11,581 bases of DNA from Bacteroidales bacterium UBA4345 (GTDB taxonomy: Bacteria; Bacteroidota; Bacteroidia; Bacteroidales; Paludibacteraceae). The stretch spans positions 1 through 11,581 of the forward strand of contig DGTD01000098.1 in the NCBI GenBank assembly GCA_002396385.1. Reading direction: 5' to 3'. The notes under the pieces were generated by a model. The model was not told the origin of the DNA and searched no databases. It saw only the letters and a program-made list of their open reading frames with translations. The position numbers and the translations under genes are program-made. Numbering within the stretch: the stretch's first letter is position 1; each line of letters opens with the position of its first letter. Below, piece by piece: positions 9,018-11,581 of the stretch.

Positions 9018-9641
9018 CTAACTTGATGAAGTCTGGTCTTTTATGTAGTTTACGCCTCCATCAAAATCAAGAAGGTCGGTACTACTAGTATTATACATAT
9101 CTATTCTGCATGTATAGTCTCTCGTTAATGAATTGTTCTGAAGTCGCGCATTATCACAACATTTTGGCATTGTACCATATGGAATAAATTTTTTGTTTTC
9201 CAACACATTATTTACTGTATAAAAAAGATCTTCTCTTTCAGAACCTCGAGCTACAATTTCGGAATACAAGTTGTTGTTTTGATTAAATCCAATACTTTTC
9301 AATGTCTCATAGTCTTCGCCAACTATTTGTATAACTCTGTTTACATTGTCATCTACATATTGGTGCTCGTTTGTTTCTGCATTAATTATATCTCTTCTCC
9401 CATACGGGTCCACCAACTTCACCGGATTGTTGAGGCAATAATTATAAGGCGTCTTATCTGGGTCATTCTCCCACATCGGGTCCACACTCAGCCACCTAGC
9501 TACCGCAGGGTCCAAATACCTCGCCCCATAATAATACAACCCTGTCTCCTCATCCAGTTCCTTGGCATTGAAGAGGTAAGGTGAAGCCCAACTGCCATTG
9601 CGCTCTTCCACAAACACTTCACCGTACGGAATGTACACCAC
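9018..9641 (-). CDS. Orphan Rhs tip: partial Rhs core with an alternative C-terminal (toxin) domain
   Basis: A displaced Rhs fragment. Residues 1-82 from the GTG at 9641 are the end of the RHS-repeat-associated core (YIPYGEVFVEERNG, YLFNAKELDEETGLYYYG, ARYLDPAVARWLSVDP, NPVKLVDPYGR). Core homology to the upstream Rhs gene begins at base 9665, 24 bases before this GTG, and stops abruptly there. There is no normal gene start, so this is probably a silent cassette and not an independently translated gene. After the core motif DPYGR comes a unique domain of about 124 residues (84-207) with one Cys pair (161-162) and a further Cys at 178; I cannot assign it to a toxin family. It ends in a TAG followed in frame by 14 more sense codons before TAA, so the original C-terminus may have been longer. 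No convincing immunity gene follows. Orphan tips of this kind serve as donors for replacing the main gene's C-terminus. Confidence 0.75.
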   Translation of the reverse strand: MVYIPYGEVFVEERNGSWASPYLFNAKELDEETGLYYYGARYLDPAVARWLSVDPMWENDPDKTPYNYCLNNPVKLVDPYGRRDIINAETNEHQYVDDNVNRVIQIVGEDYETLKSIGFNQNNNLYSEIVARGSEREDLFYTVNNVLENKKFIPYGTMPKCCDNARLQNNSLTRDYTCRIDMYNTSSTDLLDFDGGVNYIKDQTSSS

Positions 9642-9665
9642 ATTCTGGGTAATGTGTCCGTCAAG
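9409..9665 (-). repeat. Rhs core direct repeat, orphan copy
   Basis: 257 bases aligned without gaps to 11144-11400 at an offset of 1735. Bases 9409-9497, next to the toxin junction, are identical to the other copy over 89 positions. The remaining 168 bases differ at about 25 positions by hand count, mostly at silent codon positions. Confidence 0.92.
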
Positions 9666-9703
9666 ATTTTTTCGACTGGTTAGTCTCCCTATAGTATGCT
9701 TAG

Positions 9704-9865
9704 TTGAAAGAGACGGGGTTGAAAGAGGGTGAGGCTATCGGCTTGGAGAAGGGTGTTCAAAAAGAAAAAAAAGACAACGCCCGCAAGATGAAAGAATGCG
9801 GTGTTGATACCAACATCATCTCCATCGTTACCGGACTTTCCGCCGATGAAATTGAAAAGCTCTGA
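9704..9865 (+). pseudogene. C-terminal remnant of an Rpn/PDDEXK-family transposase-like (recombination-promoting nuclease) gene
   Basis: A + strand frame of 53 codons directly after two in-frame stops (9692-9694, 9701-9703) and closed by TGA at 9863-9865. The translation starts LKETGLKEGEAIGLEKG, continues with RKMKECGVDTNIISIVTG and ends LSADEIEKL. The Gly/Glu/Lys-rich KEGxxxGLEKG stretch followed by 'cys/leu-G-x-d-x-x-I-x-x-x-TGLS-x-x-EIEKL' is the characteristic C-terminus of PDDEXK_2/Rpn-type transposase-like proteins common in Bacteroidales. Those proteins are normally about 280-320 residues long, so the catalytic nuclease part is gone. It lies between the immunity gene and the orphan Rhs tip, antisense to both, and begins within 40 bases of where Rhs core homology ends. 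It marks a rearrangement junction. The family call is from memory of the motif. Confidence 0.72.
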
Positions 9866-9986
9866 TGAAATACTTTAATGACTTAGGATGCTAGATTCAG
9901 CGCTTTCATTTTGATATTCCCAAAGGGCATTATGAATAAAAAAAAAGATATTCAAATTATGTCTAAATTTCGATGCTTTAGTAAAT
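9866..9986. other. Spacer between transposase-like remnant and immunity gene
   Basis: 121 AT-rich bases. An ATG at 9865 overlaps the remnant's stop (TGATG) but runs into TAG after nine codons. The minus strand has a run of T after the immunity gene stop (within 9940-9948 read in reverse), preceded by only a weak AT hairpin, so a terminator for the immunity gene is possible but not demonstrable. Confidence 0.35.
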
Positions 9987-10595
9987 CTACAAAGTTTTTC
10001 TTATTGTAAAGTATTCTTGTATATTTAAACCCATTTTATCAAATTCAATACCATAGTTTGATAAATACTCTTTTAGTATGTCAAGATTAAGTCTGTCTTT
10101 AATATACTTCTTTTGATAATACCGAAGATTCTCAAAACTTGCAGGTTCTCCCTTTTCATAAAAAGTCCATTTAGGCTCTTTATAAGCTAAAACGCACCTT
10201 TCAGTGTCTAAATCCCCATGCTTTATGTAGTTGAAACTATTTGTTGGATAAATATATTTAGTGTCGTTAGAAGTCATTCTGCACATTAGATAATCACAAC
10301 AAATTTTTTTGCTTAACCAATTACATAAAGTATATCTACCGTCGGCAGAGTTGGATACAAAAAAAGTAAAGTCATTATAATTGGTATCTTTCCAAAAAGT
10401 GAACACTTCATCTTTACAGCCACTTACTGATGGATTGTAATAATTTGCAATAGAAAAAGCTTCACTTATGAAGACAGCTTTACCCGAAACAAAGTTTTCA
10501 TGGTACAGATCTACAATCCTTTTTTTTATATCTTGAAACTGTAGAGCTTTTGTTTTAAAAACTGAGAATACAAAATATTCAAAATTACCAGTCAT
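9987..10595 (-). CDS. Putative Rhs immunity protein (family not recognised)
   Basis: The protein has 202 residues, with no signal peptide or membrane segment, so it is probably cytoplasmic. Its ATG begins 1 base after the stop of the Rhs gene upstream on the same strand, suggesting translational coupling. Such coupling, together with position directly behind a variable Rhs C-terminus and the low GC of both, is the standard layout of a toxin with its cognate immunity gene. The sequence is rich in aromatic residues (for example MTGNFEYFVFSVFKTKALQ and YYNPSVSGCKDEVFTFWKD) and has scattered Cys residues; I do not recognise a domain. The immunity role is inferred from context only. If correct, it should bind and neutralise the C-terminal domain of the gene before it, protecting the producer and siblings. 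Confidence 0.65.
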   Translation of the reverse strand: MTGNFEYFVFSVFKTKALQFQDIKKRIVDLYHENFVSGKAVFISEAFSIANYYNPSVSGCKDEVFTFWKDTNYNDFTFFVSNSADGRYTLCNWLSKKICCDYLMCRMTSNDTKYIYPTNSFNYIKHGDLDTERCVLAYKEPKWTFYEKGEPASFENLRYYQKKYIKDRLNLDILKEYLSNYGIEFDKMGLNIQEYFTIRKTL

Positions 10596-10596
10596 C

Positions 10597-11581
10597 TTAT
10601 TTTAATAAATAAAATTCATTAATAGCATCAGGGTCATTTTTGGGAATTTGTTGTTGATGATGTCTCATTTGTTTTGGATTATTATCATGCTCAACATTAT
10701 GGTGTTTTCCTCTTTTGTCGTATTGAATATCAGGACGGTTATCACCGACTTTGTTTCCATCTTTATCTACTTGAGTTTGATTTTTTCTTATATTAGAAAC
10801 TTCTGGGTCTTCTTTCAGTTCTTTAATGTGTTTGTCTATAGCGTCGTTATGTTTGTCTCCTCCATGCTTCTTTGCATTTCCTTCGTTAGGTGCTATCTTT
10901 TTTTTGACGTCTTTAGGCTTTGATTGTGAAGTCGATTTAGAGCCTGAAGATTGTCCAGATTTAGCTGATTGATTATTTTGATTTTTGCCTCGACTTTCGT
11001 GATAATGTGAGTTGTCGTTATTATTTTTATCTTCATTCCGCTTGGTGAGATAATTCTTGTAGGCAACAATCAAAGAACCAGCGATAAGGAATTCAAACGC
11101 TTTTTCTAGAACAGGAGCAAACCATACAAGTCTTCCATCCGGATCCACCAACTTCACCGGATTGTTGAGGCAATAATTATAAGGCGTCTTATCTGGGTCA
11201 TTCTCCCACATCGGGTCCACACTCAGCCACCTTGCTCCCGCAGGGTCAAGGTAGCGTGCTCCATAGTAGTACAGCCCCGTCTCCTCGTCGAGTTCCTTGG
11301 CGTTGAAGAGGTATGGAGATGCCCAACTGCCATTGCGCTCTTCCACAAACACCTCGCCATACGGAATGTACACCACGTTCTGGGTAATGCGGCCGTCAAG
11401 GTCGGTCACCATGGCAGTGCTGCCGAGGTGGTCGGGATGGTAGAAGTAAAGGGCTGGCGCAGAGTCGGTTGCTGACTGGGGGCCCAAACTTTCAGCCAGT
11501 TGGAAATCGCCGCCGTCGCAACAGAACGACTTGTTGTCCACATAGTCGTCAACCAAACGCACGTTGCACTCCCAGCCAAGG
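10597..11581 (-). CDS. Rhs-family polymorphic toxin, C-terminal part (5' end outside window)
   Basis: The frame is open to the window edge; the GTG at 11562 is internal, since LGWECN precedes it in frame. Numbering from that GTG, residues 39-143 are the end of the Rhs shell: YFYHPDHLGST (39-49), YLFNAKELDEETGLYYYG (84-101), ARYLDPAGARWLSVDP (102-117) and the junction motif VDPDGR (139-144). The variable C-terminus (145-321) has a hydrophobic segment AFEFLIAGSLIVAY (155-168), possibly membrane-spanning. A low-complexity N/K/S/Q linker follows (about 175-222). The final, probably catalytic domain holds NRPDIQYDKRGKHHNVEHD (275-293) and RHHQQQ (300-305). The RPD-x11-VEHD spacing resembles a PD-(D/E)xK-like nuclease, but this is a guess. 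GC drops sharply after the junction, as expected for a swapped tip. The gene is followed at 1 base by the putative immunity gene. Role: interbacterial competition toxin, delivery system not visible. Confidence 0.85.
   Translation of the reverse strand, partial: LGWECNVRLVDDYVDNKSFCCDGGDFQLAESLGPQSATDSAPALYFYHPDHLGSTAMVTDLDGRITQNVVYIPYGEVFVEERNGSWASPYLFNAKELDEETGLYYYGARYLDPAGARWLSVDPMWENDPDKTPYNYCLNNPVKLVDPDGRLVWFAPVLEKAFEFLIAGSLIVAYKNYLTKRNEDKNNNDNSHYHESRGKNQNNQSAKSGQSSGSKSTSQSKPKDVKKKIAPNEGNAKKHGGDKHNDAIDKHIKELKEDPEVSNIRKNQTQVDKDGNKVGDNRPDIQYDKRGKHHNVEHDNNPKQMRHHQQQIPKNDPDAINEFYLLK
11144..11400 (-). repeat. Rhs core direct repeat, main-gene copy
   Basis: Counterpart of 9409-9665. The identical 89-bp block is 11144-11232 and ends three codons inside the core, counted from the DPDGR toxin junction. 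To its left in + coordinates the two sequences diverge completely into unrelated C-terminal domains. To the right, past 11400, only this copy continues as core. Confidence 0.92.

Follow-up and report, generated by a model that had tools for sequence, protein, structure and literature searches.

Patchwork core ends in an Rhs toxin-tip array of Paludibacteraceae: an identical 89-nt block as a probable trace of recent exchange

Two Rhs-like genes on one contig of a Paludibacteraceae genome share an 89-nt block of perfect identity close to the junction of core and toxin tip. We consider it likely that the locus is the end of an Rhs-type tip array in which homologous exchange between paralogous core ends leaves mosaics, with the block being the product of a recent exchange. 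It is observed directly that identity is mosaic, that this holds generally for the core ends compared, and that modules have been reassorted between the two sister species. The locus is a case of C-terminal displacement of Rhs genes, recognized since 2009, here in a family for which a literature search on Rhs found no paper. Tip swapping is a known bacterial route to changing weapons. Here, C-terminal displacement is followed at base resolution in a Bacteroidales family, where a tip travels together with its presumed immunity gene and some of the core end, the core ends have become patchworks, and older tips fall into decay.

The host assembly is a draft genome of 3.47 Mb in 129 contigs. The window, meaning the whole stretch of 11,581 nt that was analyzed, is C66:1-11581 of a 29,010-bp contig and ends there because 157 N follow at 11582-11738, within the upstream gene and 181 nt beyond the compared repeat. 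All toxin-tip genes of the window lie on the minus strand. Read from upstream, the contig carries a tyrosine recombinase, a tip gene with a NucA/NucB domain, two SUKH-like ORFs, the upstream or 'main' Rhs-like gene (MAIN), an ORF abutting it (10595-9987), the orphan (9665-9018), and then an LRR protein (Table 1). MAIN runs beyond the N-run to C66:12798, where core homology stops. Both core copies contain the RHS-associated core domain, scoring above the TIGR03696 cut-off of 32.5 bits, and both reach a DPxG junction (DPDG, DPYG) followed by C-termini without visible similarity. Against the Pfam RHS profile, the MAIN core scores 22.8 bits, under the cut-off of 27.9, and a Pfam search with the orphan core fragment returned no match at E 1. 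The presumed immunity ORF gave a single Pfam match under the cut-off and none in NCBIfam or PADLOC (E 1). A 119-nt stretch at G000:C66:12811-12929 recurs inverted, with 87% identity, at G000:C84:12091-12209, and the two copies adjoin the 5' edges of two core fragments.

Table 1. Features of the locus and PDDEXK_2 genes beside related tips. Plain coordinates refer to the window; G000 is the window's own genome and G003 the sister-species genome.
Feature	Position	Strand	Remark
Tyrosine recombinase (PF00589)	C66:15561-16679	-	Pfam match
Tip gene with NucA/NucB domain	C66:15273-14284	-	
Two SUKH-like ORFs	between the NucA/NucB tip gene and MAIN		just under the PF09346 cut-off
Core end of MAIN	11131..11581	-	TIGR03696, 73.3 bits
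Identical 89-nt block, MAIN copy	11144..11232	-	
Tip 1 linker, hydrophobic start	10945..11130	-	common to P0007 and P0116; limits by eye
Tip 1, predicted nuclease domain	10597..10944	-	PD-(D/E)XK type
ORF abutting tip 1, presumed immunity gene	9987..10595	-	presumed from position only
PDDEXK_2 / Rpn-like nuclease gene remnant	9716..9862	+	C-terminal 53 residues
Leader of 41 nt	9666..9706	-	5' edge of orphan core fragment
Orphan core fragment	9396..9665	-	90% identical to 11131-11400; TIGR03696, 75.6 bits
Identical 89-nt block, orphan copy	9409..9497	-	
Tip 2 (orphan tip), truncated	9018..9395	-	relative to P0002
PDDEXK_2 genes or remnants beside orphan tips, own genome	9716-9862 (window); G000:C97:1565-2578; G000:C84:13778-14461	+ (window)	
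PDDEXK_2 genes or remnants, sister genome	G003:C14:167485-168390; G003:C30:53605-53853; G003:C2:23293-23513		

The earlier note on this DNA had reported a perfect block beside a less similar core, and both descriptions are exact. In an ungapped comparison (offset 1735), the block copies differ at 0 of 89 positions, while the adjoining core (9498-9665) differs at 25 of 168, mostly silently; on the tip side (9396-9408), 3 of 13 positions differ before homology ends. Across the full 270 nt, 23 of 26 differing codons are synonymous. At the rate outside the block, the probability of 0/89 is ~6e-7, and permutation of the 143 columns variable among 14 core ends produced an identical run this long in 0 of 200,000 trials. 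Variable third positions point the same way, with 0/27 differing in the block versus 20/47 outside (Fisher 2.1e-5). Recombination explains the perfect block, and the proposal of a recent recombination or conversion event is thereby supported.

These comparisons, and those of mosaicism, used 14 of the 16 core ends in the fetched G000 and G003 stretches, omitting C42:1716-1823 (36 residues only) and the copy on G003:C14 at 167 kb (two pieces). Significant changes in identity along 246 nt were found in 48 of the 91 pairs, where about one would be expected by chance at that level (pairs interdependent, uncorrected), and the split points are spread from column 14 to column 219. Given this spread, the earlier suggestion that the block is the one usable exchange site is not borne out; nor does the block demonstrate that either tip replaced the other. 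Over a stretch of 72 nt that overlaps the start of the block, the orphan matches the tip gene at the right end of G003:C14 without a difference. A three-sequence test resolves the orphan into a left part of sister-species (G003:C14) type and a MAIN-like right part (p 1e-4), and identifies MAIN as a mosaic too (p 0.0037); across the dataset, 550 of 2184 triples have p < 0.005, uncorrected and interdependent. Relative to the closest sister copy, MAIN differs at 15/144 positions outside the block and 7/89 within it, which is roughly even, and the orphan at 22/144 and 7/89. The third positions of MAIN are uneven against the same copy (12/47 versus 1/27), so its block may itself have been exchanged. 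The sister-genome counterpart of this site runs off its contig.

Tip exchange is directly seen elsewhere in the two sister genomes. On G000:C42 and G003:C14, one tip with its presumed immunity ORF, 93% identical over 1387 nt, sits on different cores; the module is 86-99% identical per 100 nt across ~1.4 kb, and leftward identity drops to 87% and 52%. As a yardstick, G000 and G003 are 92% identical in a gene identified by eye as gyrB. G000:C97 and G003:C30 share a PDDEXK_2 gene start and spacer (92, 99, 91, 95, 95, 79, and 80 identical per 100 columns), then a core end (93, 84, and 78), and continue into wholly unlike tips, a pattern that we read as one slot with two tips. Related proteins (P-numbered) came from the best 120 of 2654 listed, of which 17 were read, plus two from another search. 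Among them, P0002 has tip 2 attached to a different core variant, and P0004 and P0007 have the block, at the protein level, with other ends, that of P0004 being a further tip. The tip 1 linker carries other ends in P0007 and P0116, so that exchange takes place inside tips too, with the linker as a second exchange region. Separately, in P0125 the final third of tip 2 follows the start of an acetyltransferase, as either a real fusion or a metagenome chimera.

In the mechanism that we favor, short 3' core fragments would serve as recombination anchors within the array, and exchange between core ends, both within the genome and with relatives, would move modules of core end, tip, and immunity gene. 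The block would then be the conversion tract or crossover product of a recent exchange, its left edge marking the point of strand exchange and its right edge the place where a conversion tract stops as homology ends at the tip junction. Copying of MAIN-like sequence into the orphan, not the reverse, is the likely direction, though only weakly so; the exchange presumably occurred in cis and was probably carried out by the host's general recombination.

The main rival to this explanation inverts cause and effect: a core-end haplotype of the lineage would already have been identical in both modules before they came together and then served as the crossover site when one inserted next to the other, by a single crossover as described for enterobacteria (Jackson 2009). 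We regard this as possible, if on balance improbable, and its confidence overlaps with that of the preferred explanation because both invoke recombination. In keeping with it, the block occurs at the protein level with four ends (MAIN, the orphan, P0004, and P0007), and the sister species holds the near-match described above (7/89 positions and 1/27 third positions differing). Against it, the haplotype is rare in the genomes covered: only 25 of 358 family genomes contain any match (at most two candidates scored per genome), G003 is the only one besides the window's own genome to reach 94%, and a degenerate pattern for the middle of the block retrieved a single genome-contig record, that of G003, from a collection in which own-genome records are possibly absent. 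That the block is instead preserved by DNA-level constraint or codon bias is barely plausible. The earlier note had held that equal conservation of the block in all unrelated Rhs genes of the genome would refute its tip-switching reading; the five other own-genome core ends compared differ from the block at 29, 22, 12, 29, and 33 of 89 positions, so constraint of this kind does not explain the block. Low silent divergence does recur in three more pairs (MAIN and the orphan versus g3_170k, 1/27 each; C42 versus g3_171k, 0/27), but these pairs have a common block class or the same tip, and third-position differences from MAIN amount to 7-19 of 27 in 11 of the 13 other copies. A short-read mis-join or strain mixture at the 89-nt repeat must also be considered, in view of the fragmented draft and the nearby N-run, but we think it very unlikely. 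When direct repeats lie in tandem on a single contig, the other assembly path would yield a deletion plus a free circle, not a swapped order, and orphan-like and main-like junctions are found at the protein level in P0001 (5.2-kb contig) and P0007 (32-kb contig), albeit possibly from the same sample.

A further reading, proposed in the earlier note, treats the block as a ready toxin switch, maintained so that a 1.7-kb deletion between its copies can place tip 2 behind the main gene. The direct repeats are correctly oriented for this, and a main/orphan fusion in Salmonella LT2 provides an experimental precedent, involving 522 bp at 95% (Koskiniemi 2014, PMC3967940). LT2 resembles the present locus in having an orphan downstream of an rhs gene with a near-identical core overlap, but there the main gene is full-length and the orphan is a functional toxin with immunity, whereas here the upstream gene is truncated, as is the orphan tip. 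The MAIN core begins at residue ~1016 of the core frame of genome G023, a frame itself cut short by the limit of the fetched sequence, and a search with frame residues 700-1015 turned up nothing on that strand upstream of C66:12798; core matches located at C66:24916-26619 are part of a different, plus-strand gene. By this comparison, MAIN appears 5'-truncated, without at least the first ~1000 core residues. No intact N-terminus is present in the window, a SpvB-domain gene of C66 is cut off by the contig end, and a 2335-aa frame of the sister genome likewise runs off its contig, C11. Tip 2 in turn stops 104 residues before the end of P0002, a loss of nearly half of the tip. This truncation is not confined to C66, since P0001, from another contig and with five member sequences, ends at the same place. 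Between tip 2 and the LRR gene, the strand of tip 2 holds no ORF of at least 80 aa, a smaller one being possible, and an ORF in the position of an immunity gene adjoins tip 1 only.

If the stretch between the blocks were deleted, a truncated core would therefore end up fused to a truncated tip, tip 1 and its neighboring ORF would be lost, and the product would not be an intact toxin. No copy of the orphan tip was seen behind a proven full core, the same tip in P0002 lying on a 2.5-kb contig. A ready switch thus seems a distinctly improbable account of this pair. Of the layout first described, the succession of Rhs core, tip, and orphan stands, but the 'main' gene is truncated and lies within an array, and the orphan tip is truncated as well. 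Neither gene looks capable of working as a main gene or as a spare tip, and the pair is better seen as a leftover of earlier shuffling than as a switch ready for use. It serves as a warning that a perfect repeat between 'main' and 'orphan' Rhs genes need not be a usable switch. A good model of a complete locus of this kind is G023:C18:104676-143999, with 14 core-end matches, some partial, in or downstream of an Rhs frame that spans 1793 residues or more.

In enterobacteria, Rhs C-terminal displacement was described from core fragments with unrelated tips in arrays, with homologous recombination in the core and single-crossover insertion of modules put forward (Jackson 2009, PMC2935791). Those arrays match the present one in their short core fragments of variable length fused to unrelated tips; the present case differs in its host family, its truncated upstream gene, and the tracing of patchwork core ends in two sister genomes. 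The Rhs loci of the bee-gut bacterium Snodgrassella likewise have orphan-tip arrays exchanged between strains and species (Steele 2017, PMC5727410; 2021, PMC8125069), but they belong to another phylum and are linked there to a T6SS. T6SS effector clusters of V. cholerae are also mosaics with break points at no single site (Kirchberger 2017, PMC5361080), although they consist of effector-immunity modules, unlike the Rhs core fragments here. Bacteroidales rAID arrays (PMC12247911) share with C66, from 16679 downward, a tyrosine recombinase followed by co-oriented genes including SUKH-like ORFs. In contrast to rAID, toxin tips are present here, and the likeness of the recombinase is one of PF00589 match and position. 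A limited comparison of 19 intergenic stretches from two genomes found no motif common along the C66 array, which is reminiscent of rAID and is not classed as such.

Genes for PDDEXK_2 (Rpn-like) nucleases recur near the core ends. Counting 7 of the 8 G000 core ends (without C42:1716-1823) and all 8 of G003, 2/7 and 5/8, respectively, lie within 2 kb of such a gene; with chance proximity of ~0.027 and 0.014 per copy, the binomial probabilities are 0.014 and 3e-8, for array members that are interdependent. Two further core ends lie near remnants, one of which is 10 nt from the leader of the window orphan and the other ~230 nt from the G003:C2 core; the window remnant is 75% identical to residues 286-338 of the C97 protein. 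In E. coli, overexpression of Rpn proteins promotes RecA-independent recombination (PMC5350276). Conceivably, though we think it unlikely, the Rpn-like nucleases encoded near orphan tips in this genus drive tip exchange by cutting beside core fragments and so starting conversion and module insertion; the link to Rpn is one of resemblance, because the E. coli proteins belong to a different Pfam family (PF04754). If the link were true, these genes would be candidates for the exchange initiator. Leaders of ~228 nt before the orphan tips at G003:C14:167235-167485 and G003:C2:23514-23741 are 91% identical and show a short inverted repeat by eye. The window orphan retains only the last 41 nt of this leader, which recur at two sister-species orphans with 97.6% and 95.1% identity. 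In another species, a DUF1016/YhcG nuclease gene lies within a tip array (G040:C88:20710-21780).
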